Assembly (NCBI GenBank): GCA_009782015.1
Contig: WQUP01000037.1
Coordinates: forward strand, 1-7,122
Direction of reading: 5' to 3'
Source of the DNA: Endomicrobiia bacterium
GTDB lineage: Bacteria > Elusimicrobiota > Endomicrobiia > Endomicrobiales > Endomicrobiaceae
DNA: 7,122 nt
The translations under genes were made by a program, and so were the position numbers. The notes beneath the pieces are model-generated. The model worked only from the letters and a program-made list of their open reading frames with translations, made no database searches and had not been told where the DNA came from. Positions 174-6,573 of this stretch are shown piece after piece. Each line of letters opens with the position of its first letter. Within the stretch, counting starts at the first letter, position 1.

Positions 174-377
174 CTAAACCTTTCTAATCTTAACCGCTTT
201 GGGACCTTTCTCGGAAGATACAACGTCAAATTCAACTTCCTGTCCTTCCGCTAAGCTTTTGAAACCTTCGCTCTGGATTTCCTGAAAGTGCGCGAAAAGA
301 TCCGCAGAACCGTCATCCGGAGTTATGAAACCGAAGCCTTTTTGATCGTTAAACCACTTCACTTTACCTTTTGCCAT
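174..377 (-). CDS. csp: cold-shock domain protein (CspA family)
   Basis: This 67-residue protein has the usual length of a single-domain bacterial Csp, a five-stranded OB-fold that binds single-stranded RNA and DNA and melts mRNA structure in the cytoplasm. The start [10 protein letters not shown] is typical. RNP1 is visible as KGFGFI (residues 13-18) and RNP2 as LFAHF (27-31), the variant with L and A instead of VFVHF that is common in several Gram-negative lineages. The chain ends in KAVKIRKV, the last strand. The ATG at 375-377 is preceded by GGGAG (388-392) with a 10-nt spacer. It lies 64 bases downstream of a small basic-protein gene on the same strand, and a -10 box in that gap suggests it can be transcribed alone. 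The family assignment is secure. Whether it is cold-induced or constitutive cannot be read from the sequence. Confidence 0.95.
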
Positions 378-441: not shown

Positions 442-720
442 TTAAAAATGTTTTTTCTTTTTATTTTTAAAACTAAAATCTCTGCCGCCGCTTTTGCTAA
501 ATGGATTCTTGTCTGAAAAAGAATCTCTCTTGTGCGGAAAAAACTTTTTCTCTTCAAACGGCTTGCGGTCAAAATCTCTTCCGTTGCCCCTGCCGAAATG
601 TTTTCTGTCCGAAAAAAAGTCCCTTTTTGGCGGAAAAGTTTTCTTCTCTTCAAGCAGTTTAGCGATTTTTTCCAATTGCGCGCTTATATTTTTCAGCTGC
701 GCCAATATTTCATTATCCAT
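442..720 (-). CDS. small basic protein with N-terminal coiled coil and two 32-residue repeats
   Basis: I do not recognise a family with certainty. The 92-residue product begins with a short amphipathic helix (residues 1-25, hydrophobic at L8, I12, L16, I19, L22, L23) that should form a coiled coil. The rest is rich in K, R, F, D and G and forms two tandem repeats, residues 26-57 and 58-89, sharing KK-x-F-P-x-KRD, FSD and GRDF. There is no cysteine, signal peptide or membrane segment. Such basic, aromatic, glycine-bearing tails often bind RNA, and the next gene downstream encodes a cold-shock protein, but an RNA role is inference. I chose the ATG at 718-720 because AAGGAG (727-732) precedes it by a 6-nt spacer. 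A longer in-frame start at 789 would translate the three hairpins and has no ribosome site. Confidence 0.65.
   Translation of the reverse strand: MDNEILAQLKNISAQLEKIAKLLEEKKTFPPKRDFFSDRKHFGRGNGRDFDRKPFEEKKFFPHKRDSFSDKNPFSKSGGRDFSFKNKKKKHF
454..645 (-). repeat. intragenic tandem duplication, two 96-bp units
   Basis: The two 32-residue repeats of the small basic protein correspond to adjacent 96-bp units, 550-645 and 454-549. They keep the motifs KRD, FSD and GRDF in the same register but have diverged elsewhere, so this is an old, selected duplication and not a fresh slippage product. Confidence 0.6.
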
Positions 721-733
721 TGCCTGCTCCTTA

Positions 734-789
734 TGCGCGCAGCGCACATCATTTCCGAAGGAAACATCATGTCCCAAGGGACACATCAT
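734..789 (-). promoter_or_regulatory. three tandem hairpins with TGATG linkers in an mRNA leader
   Basis: In transcript order there are three perfect short inverted repeats: TGTCC-CTTG-GGACA (770-783), TTTCC-TTC-GGAAA (752-764) and TGCGC-TGC-GCGCA (734-746). Each is preceded by the same five bases TGATG (784-788, 765-769, 747-751). Each stem has 5 bp and a 3-4 nt loop, each begins with T and ends with A, yet the stems share almost no other sequence. The last hairpin ends two bases before the ribosome site AAGGAG of the small basic-protein gene. No U-tract follows any of them, so they are not ordinary terminators. The array fills the space between the tRNA 3' end and the ribosome site. A leader bound by a protein, or an RNA processing signal, are possible roles. 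Confidence 0.7.
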
Positions 790-797
790 TGTCTTTC

Positions 798-887
798 TGG
801 CGGAAGGAGAGGGATTTGAACCCCCGATAGAGTTTCCCCTATACTAGTTTTCAAGACTAGCGCCTTAAACCGCTCGGCCATCCTTCC
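798..887 (-). tRNA. tRNA-Ser (anticodon UGA), CCA encoded
   Basis: The minus strand folds as a complete long-variable-arm tRNA. The acceptor GGAAGGA (881-887) pairs with TCCTTCC (802-808), followed by discriminator G and an encoded CCA (798-800). The D arm is closed by GCC/GGC. The anticodon stem CTAGT/ACTAG holds the loop CTTGAAA, with anticodon TGA at 851-853, which reads UCA and other UCN serine codons. The variable arm is a stem of about 6 bp with a GAAA loop. The T arm has the loop TTCAAAT. Discriminator G73 and the long variable arm are the identity elements of serine tRNAs. A sequence identical to its first 18 bases recurs at 1029-1046. Confidence 0.96.
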
Positions 888-954
888 ACTTTCGTCTTAT
901 ATTTAGGTGCGTCTGTTTTATGCTTCTGAATATTGTTATGAACTTTAATACGTG

Positions 955-1046
955 CCAGGAGTCGGTTCCGGTGCGCTCACCACTCGCGCCCGCGGCAGAC
1001 ACGTCCTCGTTATTCCTCGGACTGCCGCCCGCTCGGCCATCCTTCC
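955..1046 (-). ncRNA. candidate structured RNA beginning with a tRNA-Ser 5' half
   Basis: These 92 bases contain 64 G or C (70%), while flanks 888-954 and 1047-1080 have about 31-32%, so the island has sharp edges. On the minus strand its first 18 bases are identical to the acceptor strand and D arm of the neighbouring tRNA-Ser, and the match extends 4 bases upstream. After that it is not a tRNA: there is no anticodon arm, and the acceptor strand has no partner. Instead GCGGCAG pairs with CTGCCGC (1022-1028 with 992-998, 7 bp), and GGTG/CACC closes a short hairpin near 971-982. A strong promoter lies about 30 bases upstream. It may be a tRNA-derived small RNA, or a tRNA pseudogene joined to unrelated GC-rich sequence. 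Confidence 0.4.
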
Positions 1047-1150: not shown

Positions 1151-3775
1151 TTATGGCTTCAGCGCTCTTTGCAAGTCTTTGTTTGGAGGTTGGTTTGTAT
1201 TTATCGAAGGGATGCCTCCGGAAAGAGCTCTTTTCATGTCGTCGCTGAGCTGGATGTCTTCGTTTATTATTGCTCCCTCGTCTTCCGGTTCGGGAGGGGG
1301 CGGGGCGTATCTGTTGCTGTCGGATTTGTTCTGCCCGTTGTCTTTAGGCTTTTTCTCTTTTGCGGATATATAATAAGGAGTGTAGAATGACCAGCGAGCG
1401 CCAATGTTTGCGTAAAAGTTATTGTATGACAAAGCCGTCTGCAGATTTGCGTTTGCGAAAATGTCCAGATTTTCGATGATCTCGGCGCGCACTCCGGCGA
1501 AAAGCCCGAAAGAAAACTTTCCTTCCTCGGAGCCTCTGCTTTCAAAAGAAACGTCCGTGTTTTCAAAGTTTCCCGTTATTTGCGGATAAGCACAACTCAA
1601 AAGAAACGCCGCTTCGGCGCCGCACTGCCAGCCGAAAAATCTGTTCGATTGGTTCAATCCCGCTCCTATTTTTGCGGCGGTTCTTGTGTAAGAGTTTCCG
1701 GATATTTTAAGGTTTAAGCTGTCGGCTCCGGTTTCGTTAAATCCTCGATAAGAAGAACTTTTTGCCGAAAAGCACGCGTAAGGCCTGAAGAAAAAATCGT
1801 CGGCAAGCGCATATTTGTAAGCGCCTTCAAACTCGGCTCCCAGAGCCGTTGCGCCGAAAGACGCGCGAGCCTGCCTGTCTGCAAACGGGATGTTTCTCCA
1901 CGTTTCATAATCGTCAAAGCTGCACGAGAGCACGCCTTTTACTTCCAATTCTTGCCATGCGTATCCGCCGTAAAAGCCGAAACCTTTATTCTTTATGTCT
2001 GCGCTGTTGCCTTGGGGCTGCTTTGCGGACTGCGAGGCATACTTTCCGTAAATTCCGGCGGCAAAATCTTGATACGGAATCATATCGTATCCGATCATTA
2101 TTCCGTTTGAAGTTGCCTGATAGTCGCCGGGCGAATTTCTGTCTCCGAAAAAAGCGTTCGAGTTGCCTATGTACTGCGCCCATACTCCGCTGTTGACCGC
2201 CGTATTATCGTAATCTGTTTTGATTTTCTGAAAGACGTTCCTGCCGTCGCTTTCCGCGGCTCCGCTTCTTATGACGTTTGCCAAAAAGTAACCCGAGATT
2301 TGAGCAAGAGCGGTTTTTGCGTCATTTGTTTCAAGAGAGTCTATTACGGTTATCATTTTGTCGAGGTCTCCGGAGCTTGAAGATGAAAGCGCGTCAAAAG
2401 TTTTTGCCGTTTGGCTTTGGTTGAAAGTAAGACCGGAAAGCGATCTGAAATTTGTGCTCGCGCTTGCGCCCGTAAAAAGCGCCGTTATCCATCCGGCGAA
2501 AAAATCGCCGTAATCTATTTCGGGCATTACCGCAACCGACGACGATGTCAGCGTTACGGCCGAAAACTCGCCGCTTTGCGCGCCTGAAAAACCGATTATC
2601 TTATATGCCTTTTTCCTGAAATTTGTATCCGCGAAATCCATGTTGAGATTGAGGGAGCTTCCGGCGTCCAAAACGGCGTCCCCGGAGGATATTATCTTAT
2701 CGGTTTTATTGGACGCGAATATGTCCATATTCAAACTTCCGGCGTTTTTTAAACTCAAAACCGTAATTGTGTCGTCTTGAGAGTTTTGCATGTTTAGCGC
2801 GGAGCCTGCCGCGTTGGCGAGGTTTCCGGCTCTTAATCTTGCGCCTTTCATAAGATTAAACGCGCCTCCGCCGGACGCCGAAATGAGTACGTCAACGCCG
2901 TCAAGAAAAGCCGGCGCGTAAAGATTAAAATTTCCTTCGCCAGAGTAAACAAATTTACTGCCTGTTGCGTTTGCGGATATGCCGTCATGCATTTCTATCG
3001 ATGCTCCGGCAGCCGCATTGAAATTTACTTCGGCGTAATTGCCGATATGAAGCGCGTTTGAAACTCCGGCCGCCGTATTGCCTTCAAAAACGGCGGAGAT
3101 ATCGCTGCCGTCGCCGTTTATGTCGCTTGCGGTTACCGTAAGCTTTGCCGGAGAATACTGCAAGCCTTCTAGATATATGGCGCCGCCTTTGGAGCCGGAT
3201 GTGGAATTGCAGTAAAATTTACCGTTGCCGATAGTTGCGGCGGACGAGTAAAGATACAGAGCGCCGCCGCCGGCCGAAGCAGAGTTTGACGAAAAATTTA
3301 CCGTTCCGTCAAAAACTAATAACGAGTCGCCGGCATAAATCGCGCCGCCCCGATAGGCATTGTTTGACGAGAAAGCGGACGCGCTTGAAAAAGAGACGTC
3401 CGAAGCGTCAACCAATAAGGCTCCGCCGTTGCCGGCAGTAGTCATCTTAGTGAAATGCAAATTTGTGAAAGTTACGTTTGAGAGGTTGCCTATAAAAAAG
3501 CTGCCGTAGAGGCCGTTGCCGTGCAGTGTTGACAGCCCGGATGATGAAGTTCCGGTAAAAGTCAGCGTTCTTGAAAGCGCTTGCGGCAGATTTGAAGTAA
3601 AAATTATGGAAGGGCGGGTTATTTGAATGTCTGAAGCCGTAGATACCGAAACTGCGTCGTAAAGCTGCCGGAAATTCTGCACGGACGCGCTCTGCGCGTT
3701 TGCCGCGCAGGCAAAAAGCAGCAAAAAGAAAGTTATAGGCAATGATTTTAACGCAGCAGATTTTACAAAATTCAT
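1151..3775 (-). CDS. autotransporter with Pmp-like passenger and outer-membrane beta-barrel
   Basis: This 874-residue protein starts with a clear Sec signal peptide (basic start, hydrophobic run ITFFLLLFACA, cleavage probably after ANA at residue 27). Residues 117-233 show alternating GGA[IL] motifs (117, 143, 170, 197) and FxxN motifs (135, 161, 187, 230), the signature of polymorphic membrane proteins, which fold as a beta-helix on the cell surface. A linker with the autotransporter-like ALAQISGYFLA stretch (489-499) leads to a barrel at about 530-797 that ends in GARWSF, a typical final strand. Unusually 77 further residues follow, with APPPPEPE and two KRAL/QRAL motifs. AAGG lies 9 bases before the ATG. 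The adhesin or surface role comes from the family; its ligand is unknown. It is preceded by a 328-base spacer, so it probably has its own promoter. Confidence 0.88.
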   Translation of the reverse strand: MNFVKSAALKSLPITFFLLLFACAANAQSASVQNFRQLYDAVSVSTASDIQITRPSIIFTSNLPQALSRTLTFTGTSSSGLSTLHGNGLYGSFFIGNLSNVTFTNLHFTKMTTAGNGGALLVDASDVSFSSASAFSSNNAYRGGAIYAGDSLLVFDGTVNFSSNSASAGGGALYLYSSAATIGNGKFYCNSTSGSKGGAIYLEGLQYSPAKLTVTASDINGDGSDISAVFEGNTAAGVSNALHIGNYAEVNFNAAAGASIEMHDGISANATGSKFVYSGEGNFNLYAPAFLDGVDVLISASGGGAFNLMKGARLRAGNLANAAGSALNMQNSQDDTITVLSLKNAGSLNMDIFASNKTDKIISSGDAVLDAGSSLNLNMDFADTNFRKKAYKIIGFSGAQSGEFSAVTLTSSSVAVMPEIDYGDFFAGWITALFTGASASTNFRSLSGLTFNQSQTAKTFDALSSSSSGDLDKMITVIDSLETNDAKTALAQISGYFLANVIRSGAAESDGRNVFQKIKTDYDNTAVNSGVWAQYIGNSNAFFGDRNSPGDYQATSNGIMIGYDMIPYQDFAAGIYGKYASQSAKQPQGNSADIKNKGFGFYGGYAWQELEVKGVLSCSFDDYETWRNIPFADRQARASFGATALGAEFEGAYKYALADDFFFRPYACFSAKSSSYRGFNETGADSLNLKISGNSYTRTAAKIGAGLNQSNRFFGWQCGAEAAFLLSCAYPQITGNFENTDVSFESRGSEEGKFSFGLFAGVRAEIIENLDIFANANLQTALSYNNFYANIGARWSFYTPYYISAKEKKPKDNGQNKSDSNRYAPPPPEPEDEGAIINEDIQLSDDMKRALSGGIPSINTNQPPNKDLQRALKP

Positions 3776-4103: not shown

Positions 4104-5252
4104 TTATGAAATGAATCTGCGCCTTGCGAGGTATGACAGGACAAAACATGCGGCGGCAAAAACAGCAAGCAGCGCGGAAGGCGCCAGAGAGTAGAATGCG
4201 CAAACGTCTCCCAGAATAAAAAGCCTTAGATGAGTAACCGCGTAAGTTGAGGGGAAAGCGTACGATATTATCTTTAAAACTAAAGGCAGAAATGCGTGCG
4301 GCCATGTCATGCCCGAGAGCATCGCGGCCGGAAACGAATAAAACATAAGCGCCGCCAGCGCCATCTCGGTAGAATCGAACAGCGCCGAAATCATCATCGC
4401 AAAGAAAACCACTGCCGTTATAAACGCCGTAGAAAGCGCAAAAAGGCCGGCGAAAGAATGCGTAAATATCGATACGAACGGAAGCATGATAAAAATATTT
4501 GCGAGATTTATCGCCGTTCCGATAATCACATAAGGCGCGGCCTTTCCGAAAAATGCGGCGGCGAAACTGCCTTCCGAGGCTTTGGAAAGTTCGCGCTTGT
4601 TTTTCGGTTTTCTTTCAAGCAGCACGGTTGTGCATACGGCGACAAGAAGTATCTGCTGCAAAACTATAAACAAAAGGCACGGCAGCAAAAAATCGGAGTA
4701 GTTCATTTGCGGGTTGAATATGTGTCTGACGTCGGCCTTTAAGGGTTCGTACGCCGCTTTAGCCGCATCGCGCGAATATCCTTTTTCAATAAGCGTTTTT
4801 TCAAACTCTCTTCGCGGAAATTGCGCGGCAAGCTCGGCGATTTTTTTCAAAAACGCGCTTGAAATCATGAATGCGCTGGCGTTTGAAGCGTTAAAAACAA
4901 CCGCCGGCCGCCCCTTTTTTAAGTTTGCGGTAAAGTTTCTCGGGATAAGATAAAACGCGCCTACGTCGTTTGAGAATATCCCGCGGTAGCCCTGCTCGGA
5001 CGAGCCGTAGTATTGCGTTATCTTAAGTTCCGGCGCGGCGTTAAGGCTGCGCGCAAGTTTTCTTGAAACGGCAGATGTGTCGCTGTTTATCAATCCTATA
5101 TTTATGTCGGAAGCCCTTTTGTTTATGTACAGGTATGAAATCGCAAGGCCGTAAGCCAGCGGCGCGGCAAAACATATCAGCAGCAGATCTTTTGAAGTAA
5201 AAATTCTGCGCCATTCCCGTAAAAATACGGATTTAAAATTTTGAAATTTCAT
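4104..5252 (-). CDS. ABC-2 type exporter permease, second subunit
   Basis: This 382-residue inner-membrane protein has the plan of the YhhJ/YbhS/YbhR group of ABC-2 permeases. It has a short cytoplasmic start, TM1 (about 22-42), a long extracytoplasmic domain (about 43-184) and five more TM segments (about 187-210, 238-262, 268-292, 297-315, 351-376). Family motifs are FNPQMNYSDFLLP (179-191) and LSGMTWP (312-318), followed by the P-S-T-Y-A-V-T-H-L-R stretch before the last helix. Such permeases work in pairs with a cytoplasmic ATPase to export drugs, lipids or polymers, often with an HlyD-like adaptor. Its start is 2 bases after the stop of the first permease gene, so translational coupling is likely; no strong ribosome site is visible. 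The substrate is unknown. Confidence 0.88.
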   Translation of the reverse strand: MKFQNFKSVFLREWRRIFTSKDLLLICFAAPLAYGLAISYLYINKRASDINIGLINSDTSAVSRKLARSLNAAPELKITQYYGSSEQGYRGIFSNDVGAFYLIPRNFTANLKKGRPAVVFNASNASAFMISSAFLKKIAELAAQFPRREFEKTLIEKGYSRDAAKAAYEPLKADVRHIFNPQMNYSDFLLPCLLFIVLQQILLVAVCTTVLLERKPKNKRELSKASEGSFAAAFFGKAAPYVIIGTAINLANIFIMLPFVSIFTHSFAGLFALSTAFITAVVFFAMMISALFDSTEMALAALMFYSFPAAMLSGMTWPHAFLPLVLKIISYAFPSTYAVTHLRLFILGDVCAFYSLAPSALLAVFAAACFVLSYLARRRFIS

Positions 5253-5254
5253 AG

Positions 5255-6463
5255 CTAATCCCGTATCCGTGCGCTTTTCTGTTTATTAAGGTCTTTAAGG
5301 ACCTTAAAGTCCTTAAGATCATTAAGACGATTGTTCACCAGCTGCGCCGTTACCCCGAAAAATATCACGGCAAGAACCGCCAGTTGTATTACAAAAGGGT
5401 ACGTAAACTCTATTCCCAAATCCTGCTGGTAAATTTTTCTGAACGCTTCTATAAAAGGAGTCAGCGGGATAAGCTGGACAAAATACGCCAGAGGTTTCGG
5501 CATCTGCGCCACGGGCCATGTGTAGCCCGAAAATAAAAACGCCGGCGCGGAAATCAAAAGACACGCTTTAAGCGAATCCAATCTGTTTTTAAAAATTGCG
5601 GCAAGCATAAGCCCGAGCGACACGCCGGCCAGCGACACAAACAGGCTTAATATCTCTGCCGCAAGAACCGTGGAAACTATGGGAATGTCAAAAAGCGGAA
5701 ATATTGCGCGGTATAAAATCTCAAAATGCAGCATGGCTATTAAAACATACATGAGAGTTTTTCCCAAAAGAGCTTTAAAAACGCTGTTTCCGGCAATCTT
5801 TTTCATGCGCCTGACGGTTCTAAAATCGTATTCGCCGGAAAGCGTGAGCGTTCCGGCGAGAATGAGAAGCTGATGCAGCACCGCAAGCCACAATCCCGGA
5901 GTAAGATAAAAATTGTAATTGAGCGCGGGATTAAAAAGCCTTGCGCTGTCGTTTTGCATAGGCCGGATAAGCGTCTTGGCTTGGTTTGAGGAAAAACCTC
6001 TTTTTGCAAGCGTCTTATATTTTATGCCGGCGCCGACGGTGCCGATTATGGTTGCCGCGTCTATGCTTGTTATGTTGCCTGTTATGTAATTTGCCGCGTT
6101 TGTGAAAACGACTATGGTTTGCGGCTTCTGCCGCTTTATATTTTTCTCGGTTCCTTTCGGTATGTATATTCCCAAAGAGATTTTGTCGCGCTCAAACAGC
6201 TCTTTCATCTCGCGTACATTTGAAAGCCTGTATCTGATGTCAATGTCCGGCGAGGCGTTGAAATAGCGGACGATAGTTCGCGATAGTTTGGAGTTGTCAT
6301 TGTCTATCACGGCTGCCGGCATTTTTTCAAGCATTCCCGAGGCATATATGCCTCCGAGAAAAATGCAGTCCGCCAGGGGAAAAACGATAAGCGCCGCAAG
6401 GTAAAGCCTGCGGCCTTTTAAAAATCCCCATTCGCGTTTGATTATTCTGAAGATATCTTTCAT
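5255..6463 (-). CDS. ABC-2 type exporter permease, first subunit
   Basis: This 402-residue inner-membrane protein has the same plan as its downstream partner: TM1 (about 20-42), an extracytoplasmic domain (about 43-184), then five TM segments (about 187-208, 235-257, 264-290, 299-315, 355-377). It carries FNPALNYNFYLTPG (177-190), SGYTWPVAQMP (312-322) and PLTPFIEAFR (333-342), all typical of YhhJ/YbhS/YbhR permeases. The two probably form a heterodimer. I start it at the ATG at 6461-6463: MKDIFRIIKREW matches the partner's opening, whereas the longer frame to 6568 is read through a palindromic repeat. No ribosome site precedes this ATG, but a TATAAA at 6470-6475 would give an almost leaderless transcript. 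The C-terminal tail after the last helix is made of a 9-bp tandem repeat. No ATPase gene is adjacent. Confidence 0.88.
   Translation of the reverse strand: MKDIFRIIKREWGFLKGRRLYLAALIVFPLADCIFLGGIYASGMLEKMPAAVIDNDNSKLSRTIVRYFNASPDIDIRYRLSNVREMKELFERDKISLGIYIPKGTEKNIKRQKPQTIVVFTNAANYITGNITSIDAATIIGTVGAGIKYKTLAKRGFSSNQAKTLIRPMQNDSARLFNPALNYNFYLTPGLWLAVLHQLLILAGTLTLSGEYDFRTVRRMKKIAGNSVFKALLGKTLMYVLIAMLHFEILYRAIFPLFDIPIVSTVLAAEILSLFVSLAGVSLGLMLAAIFKNRLDSLKACLLISAPAFLFSGYTWPVAQMPKPLAYFVQLIPLTPFIEAFRKIYQQDLGIEFTYPFVIQLAVLAVIFFGVTAQLVNNRLNDLKDFKVLKDLNKQKSARIRD
5286..5330 (-). repeat. five 9-bp tandem units at the 3' end of the first permease gene
   Basis: On the plus strand the units are TTAAGGTCT, TTAAGGACC, TTAAAGTCC, TTAAGATCA and TTAAGACGA, in perfect 9-bp register. 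Read in frame on the minus strand they give an [D/V]-[L/F]-[K/N] tripeptide series at residues 380-393. The array also contains the palindrome CTTTAAGG-A-CCTTAAAG (5293-5309). Confidence 0.8.
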
Positions 6464-6497
6464 TTTTAGTTTATACGAGAATAAAATTTTTTTGTTT

Positions 6498-6526
6498 GTC
6501 ATTCCGTGCTTGACACGGAATCCATG
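6498..6526 (+). repeat. palindromic element 4, GTCATTCCGTG type
   Basis: ATTCCGTG (6501-6508) pairs perfectly with CACGGAAT (6514-6521) around the loop CTTGA, with GTC before and CC after. It lies about 35 bases upstream of the first permease start codon. It is the reason the open frame extends falsely to 6568. Confidence 0.8.
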
Positions 6527-6573
6527 GGCACTAAAAATTATCGGAATTGTCCCTTGATAAACTAACAAATGGT

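Follow-up and report, generated by a model that had tools for sequence, protein, structure and literature searches.

The three small hairpins at positions 734–789 of the window, by which we mean the whole 7,122-nucleotide stretch of DNA analyzed here, are probably the left part of a repeated palindrome, one that likely spreads non-autonomously and often comes to lie against the ends of tRNA and tmRNA genes. A supposed RNA leader thus becomes a genome-wide repeat family, many copies of which line the ends of stable-RNA genes. The array is not a leader of the 92-residue protein gene that follows it.

The array in the window

The first-pass annotation described three perfect hairpins with TGATG linkers at 734–789, and these are indeed present on the minus strand and recur elsewhere in the genome. 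The features in and around the array are as follows.

174–377, minus strand: cold-shock protein gene, a neighbor outside the element (Pfam CSD, E 4e-30)
442–720, minus strand: 92-residue basic protein gene, a neighbor outside the element (open reading frame with AAGGAG at 727–732)
734–746, minus strand: hairpin 3, TGCGC-TGC-GCGCA (from the sequence)
746–752, minus strand: heptamer box 3, ATGATGT (from the sequence)
752–764, minus strand: hairpin 2, TTTCC-TTC-GGAAA (from the sequence and by-eye comparison with other copies)
764–770, minus strand: heptamer box 2, ATGATGT (from the sequence)
770–783, minus strand: hairpin 1, TGTCCC-TT-GGGACA (from the sequence; other copies have an equivalent slot)
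783–789, minus strand: heptamer box 1, ATGATGT (from the sequence; found again in complement within the right half of full copies)
790–796, minus strand: left terminus AAAGACA, usually AAMKRCA, 1 nt past the tRNA 3′ end (from the sequence; like termini stand beside other tRNA ends)
798–887, minus strand: tRNA-Ser gene (anticodon TGA) adjoining the element (ARAGORN and Rfam RF00005)

TGATG lies at 788–784, 769–765 and 751–747 on the minus strand, and the hairpins are spaced 19 and 18 bases from start to start. The linker is in full the heptamer ATGATGT, whose final T doubles as the first base of a stem, and the true start of the array is nearer the tRNA, at AAAGACA (796–790), 1 nt from the tRNA-Ser 3′ end at 798. 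Likeness to the element ends after hairpin 3, with the break at 733; the right half, which in full copies adds ~100 further bases, is absent, and AAGGAG (732–727) and the ATG at 720 follow. The window has a single run of three perfect 5-bp hairpins (loop of 2–5, spacing of 15–21), and one of 100 base shuffles, which did not keep dinucleotides, also produced such a run; the recurrence of the array in the genome is the stronger proof of its reality. The annotation had also set aside a CRISPR and a terminator, and we concur on both: the varied parts are palindromes that recur elsewhere, with no Cas match among six window proteins compared with Pfam, and by reading there is no GC-rich hairpin with a T run, as hairpins 1 and 2 lead into TGATG and hairpin 3 into TAAGGAGCAGG.

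The surroundings of the array hold further features. The 5′ bases of tRNA-Ser together with their flank (AAGTGGAAGGATGGCCGAGCGG), at 870–891 on the minus strand, recur at 1029–1050 on the same strand, ~160 bases upstream of the tRNA. Also upstream, a GC-rich stretch at 951–1022 (minus strand) resembles by eye those before two tRNA-Ser genes of a related genome, G004 (loci L114 and L116), and is perhaps another tRNA-linked repeat. Farther out on the minus strand are an 874-residue autotransporter with a weak match to the Chlamydia PMP repeat (1151–3775) and two ABC-2 permease genes (4104–6568).

Copy number, range and anatomy

We compared the window's own genome (G000) with its congeners G001–G004, the five members of the genus included here. 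Positions 700–800 of the window, used as a DNA query, match 12 places in G000, the window included (11 others). A search with a full unit from locus L004 yields 20 matches for G000, 31 for G004 and 5 for G001, counts that include some fragments; 10 of the 20 in G000 span at least 175 of the 207 bases, and at E 0.01 there is no match in the other 38 of the 41 genomes searched. The neighbors of the G000 matches show that copies often stand beside tRNAs and that some are in tandem, with a period of ~206 bases.

A three-box pattern is matched by 15 of 294 genomes of the phylum. By eye, the matches in G000, G001, G002 and G004, all of one genus, look like the element, those in the other 11 genomes look like chance, and the fifth member of the genus, G003, has none. 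Among named genomes, the hairpin-1 pattern occurs in 16 stretches, namely 12 of Candidatus Endomicrobium neocapritermitis, 3 of Endomicrobia bacterium Th196P4bin33 and 1 of Endomicrobium sp. Gx485_bin123, while no viral contig scanned for phage carriage has it; in both cases, records very near the window's genome may lie outside the scanned set.

The 21 full copies, whose right ends were set by a pattern, measure 162–205 bp. Their order is, in most, AAMKRCA, then heptamers with hairpins between them, a short center, complementary heptamers with hairpins of their own and usually TGYCKTT. The left heptamers are ATGATGT in G004, in G001, at one G000 site and in the window, and ATGATAT or ATGATAC in 11 full copies of G000, while those of the right half are ACATCAT or GTATCAT, again with hairpins between. 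In 21 of 21 full copies, the left boxes and the complements of the right boxes have the same majority base at the variable position, although these derive from two sequence lineages and so represent few independent events. Fold predictions for five copies have the two halves partly paired, with hairpins branching off, in ways that differ between copies. Because the heptamers have complements in the right half and the halves are predicted to pair, the linkers look like the arms of a palindrome. Since the 11 full G000 copies have TGATA in place of TGATG, the proposal that TGATG acts as an overlapping stop-start fails. UGAUG is also a C/D-box-like motif; we rejected this identity as well, since some copies have TGATAY in its place and the right half repeats the box in complement.

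In all, this is a small multi-copy element with terminal inverted repeats in most copies and, judged by its size, nil coding capacity. TTCG-type loops are frequent among its hairpins. By eye, hairpin 2 of the window resembles what G004-type copies have in their third hairpin slot, and hairpin 3 probably corresponds to the fourth, slot 2 apparently missing as it is in the tmRNA copy of G001. The window copy would thus read box, slot 1, box, slot 3, box, slot 4, with the left part only. At four other loci (L021, L023, L024 and L025), a doubled hairpin, GGGGACAATGTCCC..GGGACATTGTCCCC, recurs, by eye within or beside heptamer-type palindromes at three of the four places.

Covariation of the stems

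The stems vary in sequence yet stay complementary, such that shape is kept. We aligned 17 TGATG-type left halves of the 19 extracted, an alignment that omits L163 (one hairpin short), L071 (from another genome), the window copy and several later finds. Pairing holds in 92.1% of 390 cells, with 31 unpaired, compared with 20–64% in slid controls. Two-sided changes account for 26 cells against a shuffle mean of 7.2, with 0 of 500 shuffles as high; stem substitutions are compensated, which bears out the earlier suggestion that shape and not sequence is kept. Two-sided change affects six pairs versus 3.6 in shuffles, of which 4 in 500 do as well, and one-sided change affects none in the 17 left halves. 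One measure points the other way: further pair types number 7, below the 8.8 that shuffles average, and 499 of 500 shuffles have at least as many. These figures are to be read with the knowledge that the structure was derived from the aligned sequences themselves and that related copies inflate covariation counts.

Two-sided change is expected under RNA selection and under template switching alike, and that seen here also fits a functional RNA. We discarded the counting of G-U pairs as a means of splitting RNA from DNA selection: an A-C mismatch here is a G-U pair on the opposite strand, and a lack of G-U would fit either. The abundance of natural two-sided stem changes makes their origin, by selection or by template switching, testable within one genus, and it carries the warning that covariation alone is no proof of a functional RNA.

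Placement at tRNA and tmRNA genes

Of the 34 left ends read, 18 are no farther than 8 nt from a tRNA or tmRNA, some on the 5′ and some on the 3′ side of the gene, and wherever a copy abuts an RNA gene it is the left terminus that faces it. The other 16 include 3 that stand behind another copy. G000 has 13 left ends at 10 sites. Eight stand no more than 8 nt from a tRNA, 5 of them beside a 3′ end and 3 beside a 5′ end, and another 3 belong to second copies right behind a first. At L211 1844–2150 (G000:C77), the element comes after an incomplete repeat of the tRNA-Glu 3′ end, ~230 bases past the tRNA itself, a duplication like that of an attachment site. The one left end without a recognized tRNA, around 1905–1930 of L210 (G000:C102), is preceded by bases (..CTTCCTCCGCATAAAGG) that resemble a tRNA 3′ end and are perhaps a remnant.

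In the G004 loci examined, 7 of 17 left ends are within 8 nt of a tRNA found by ARAGORN, and 9 are at RNA genes once the tmRNA found by Rfam is counted, which has one copy at each end (L150 969–1724, G004:C35) with both left ends toward it. The other 8 lie away from such genes, 2 of them 25 and 49 nt past one tRNA-Pro. One of the three left ends in G001 abuts the tmRNA 3′ end, and the single copy at L071 abuts neither kind of gene (0/1). The device for tRNA 3′ processing that had been suggested is unlikely, since copies are also found against tRNA 5′ ends and on both sides of a tmRNA.

For 8 of 10 sites, the random-placement probability is 2e-26, which relies on a whole-genome background and is a rough guide only; G003 serves better as a control. 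When the terminus motif is relaxed, which also counts other palindromes, an insert end lies within 7 nt of 15 of 23 tRNAs in G000, 14 of 33 in G004 (where one row, His, looks like chance) and 0 of 35 in G003, the reversed-motif control giving 4, 4 and 0; the G004 and G003 counts cover sampled stretches only (43 tRNAs listed in each), those of G004 partly chosen for elements. The box array itself is absent at 15 of the 23 tRNAs of G000. A hand count by coordinates in G000 and G004 places box arrays at 8 of 17 long tRNA genes (80 or more bases) versus 7 of 49 shorter ones, which may reflect a preference for tRNAs with long variable arms. Selection that keeps only gene-end insertions could explain part of the placement.

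Comparison of sites among congeners reveals empty as well as shared ones. The two spacers of the Tyr-Gly-Thr tRNA cluster measure 13 and 12 nt in G003, 190 and 152 nt in G004 with the element in the first, and 142 and 103 nt in G000 with another palindrome in the first. In G003, 32 nt separate tRNA-Leu(TAG) from the start codon that follows; in G004 this gap opens directly with the element, and the start of the gene beyond it looks, by eye, homologous to that of G003. At tRNA-Ser(TGA), G000 has the element and neither G004 nor G003 has boxes within 70 nt. Other sites are occupied in two genomes, namely the tRNA-Met 3′ and tRNA-Pro(CGG) 5′ ends in G000 and G004 and the tmRNA 3′ end in G001 and G004, and thus some insertions may be old, with part of the placement inherited instead of reflecting repeated targeting.

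A wider group of palindromes

We searched samples of three genomes (G004 and G003, 400 kb each; G000, 135 kb) for pairs of ends that face inward and whose 34-base arms are complementary; the contigs were chosen mostly for tRNAs or elements, and 2,853 of the bases read N. Arm complementarity was used in place of a class-wide terminus pattern, which we abandoned because, although 46 of 95 genomes match it, the reversed control is equal or higher in many and most rows look like chance. Inward arm pairs number 24 in G004, 9 in G000 and 0 in G003, while outward pairs number 0 in each. Without overlaps, 22 remain in G004 and 8 in G000, and one of these is a box array by its box count. In the remaining 29, the arms repeat every 7 bases, with an identity of 0.68 at shift 7 versus 0.34 when shuffled (z 33). 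These palindromes share termini with the box-array element and have arms of tandem heptamers, and the box array appears to be a member of this group in which hairpins came to stand between the heptamers.

In G004, 11 of 22 have an end within 10 nt of the stop codon of a gene running toward the palindrome, whereas random points in element-free gaps give a mean of 1.0 or 2.1, with 0 of 2000 trials of either kind reaching 11. Eight of the 22 overlap a predicted open reading frame of at least 100 codons; the one of these that we viewed is at the 5′ end of a long frame, and some palindromes may lie inside genes. Such palindromes are few in the sampled stretches of two genomes from another genus of the family: 200 kb of G014 hold one, and 184 kb of G023 hold four overlapping pairs at a single place. 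A further period count for G000 was set aside as inflated at all periods, most likely by N bases.

Proposed mobilization and origin

If the hairpins are part of a mobile palindrome, the element would insert at the foot of a structured gene end, likely beside folds, such that the RNA gene stays intact, and would be copied by an enzyme supplied in trans. Its complementarity would be renewed by template switching on a folded strand, with one side re-copied from the other, and arms and stems would be complementary through this re-copying, not through recognition by a protein. The window copy would have lost its right half, and its place before the ribosome site of the 92-residue gene would be due to chance. 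A bolder version, which we hold to be doubtful, posits an Endomicrobium superfamily of mobile palindromes that recognize shape instead of sequence, insert on either side at the feet of tRNA and tmRNA folds and spread via a folded single strand, arm copied from arm, so that heptamer arms and hairpin stems drift yet stay complementary.

A tally of two flanking bases showed no target-site duplication and no clear rule. An autonomous parent was sought through long-range arm pairs, of which the sampled stretches hold 1 in G004, 5 in G000 and 0 in each of G001 and G003. Two of the six (L172 and L216) enclose open reading frames that by eye are unlike transposases; the other four are one place in L224. 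In the stretches sampled, which are part of each genome, and with two of the six pairs read, we found no parent insertion sequence with these ends.

The proposal that the element is REP-like, moved by REP-associated tyrosine (Y1) transposases that cut a tagged single-stranded hairpin, strikes us as improbable. It would account for boxes at the hairpin foot that recall the REP tag, and PF01797 genes are present in the element-rich G004 (3) and G001 (2) and absent from the element-free G003, the three scanned of the five matching NF047646, the REP-associated tyrosine transposase, at 70–77 bits, just below the cut-off of 80. Nevertheless, no box array lies near any of the five Y1 genes, an inward pair of heptamer-type termini stands upstream of one at L061 only, and no Y1 gene was found in the element carriers G000 (71% complete) and G002 (93%), nor in G014 and G023, which hold a few palindromes. 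The RAYT-like gene at L060 (G001:C23) has a 30-base inverted repeat of its own (29/30) that is unlike the element ends, like described Y1 genes flanked by terminal inverted repeats (PMC3733652), and no repeat that long occurs within 400 bases of the genes at L059, L061 and L063. The stems, moreover, differ wholly among copies. A RAYT-type transposase is a possible mobilizer, but such an enzyme as the general mobilizer is not supported, given the lack of arrays at Y1 genes and the palindromes in genomes without a Y1 match.

We also think it improbable that the array is a functional RNA, in which a structure between tRNA, tmRNA and protein genes would serve for insulation, termination or processing. 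Compensated stem changes, many TTCG-type loops, the position at tRNA ends and, for the wider group, at stop codons are what such an RNA would show, but most tRNAs of G000 do without the array (15/23), none of 35 in G003 has an insert end, copies sit at 5′ and 3′ ends alike, the window hairpins are followed by no T run and no Rfam family was matched. Less probable still is an origin without transposition, in which fold-back copying at gene ends that form hairpins would create the palindromes on the spot and recombination would spread them. Stems and arms that change on both sides together and the position beside structured genes suit this reading, and hairpins are reported to be both generated and preserved by template switching (PMC8794818); however, similar termini and long copies that are 83–96% identical at unrelated tRNAs suggest copying from another site. 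Finally, the array's place just before the ribosome site led the first-pass annotation to propose a leader bound by the 92-residue protein itself or by the cold-shock protein, which is now scarcely credible. The gene, whose product has no Pfam match, was found in 2 of 40 relatives (G004 and G023), both of which keep AAGGAG, spacer and ATG. The annotation had regarded close relatives with the protein and the tRNA but without the hairpins as telling against its reading, and this was seen in part: neither relative has a three-box array in the 500 bases upstream of the gene, and, as noted, tRNA-Ser(TGA) of G004 and G003 has no boxes close by. The other copies read adjoin genes unrelated to this one. 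We accordingly retain the repeated, probably mobile palindrome as the best account of the array.

Comparison with known repeats

Placement near tRNA genes is better known for eukaryotic retroelements than for bacterial miniature elements. Among bacterial repeats, BIMEs consist of units in inverted pairs. Our literature search, conducted largely outside subscription papers, found no description of the present elements, nor do they appear in the available portions of PMC11257099, PMC3733652, PMC2267715, PMC4853749, PMC8794818 and PMC4679880.

The REP/BIME/REPIN sequences associated with RAYTs, as described in PMC3733652, resemble the element in being dispersed palindromes that are mostly extragenic and often near gene ends, in having a short conserved tag at the hairpin foot and in having termini that may supply a stop codon. 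The tag differs, being ATGATRY here versus GTAG or CGTC in REPs; neither REP tag was found at the 34 left ends, where CAATGATRY, or a form that differs from it by one base, comes after the terminus. The element further differs in its several unlike stems, its termini of the AAMKRCA/TGYCKTT kind, its frequent position at stable-RNA genes and the lack of a box array beside Y1 genes.

MITEs and composites such as BOX, Correia/NEMIS and ERIC are small repeats with terminal inverted repeats and internal hairpins, a build that the element shares along with, probably, their non-autonomy. Its arms, unlike theirs, are degenerate heptamers that change together, and the sampled stretches contain no parent insertion sequence with its ends. 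Heptamers themselves are familiar from the STRRs of cyanobacteria, which are intergenic tandem repeats present in many copies per genome. The TAACTGA repeats of Beggiatoaceae are likewise intergenic tandem heptamers, many per genome (PMC4679880). Both are mainly direct repeats, whereas here the heptamers form palindrome arms with recurring termini and, in the window's family, have hairpins between them. ERIC is named in PMC2267715. The template-switch rewriting of hairpins set out in PMC8794818 would explain two-sided, multi-base stem changes; it is a mutational process and not an element, and for these copies its action is our inference.

Because there is no array at Y1 genes, the L060 gene has a repeat of its own and palindromes occur in G014 and G023, which have no Y1 match, the element is not filed under REP/RAYT. 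It is closest to the REP/BIME and MITE repeats and differs from them in its heptamer arms, its freely changing stems and its frequent position at stable-RNA genes.
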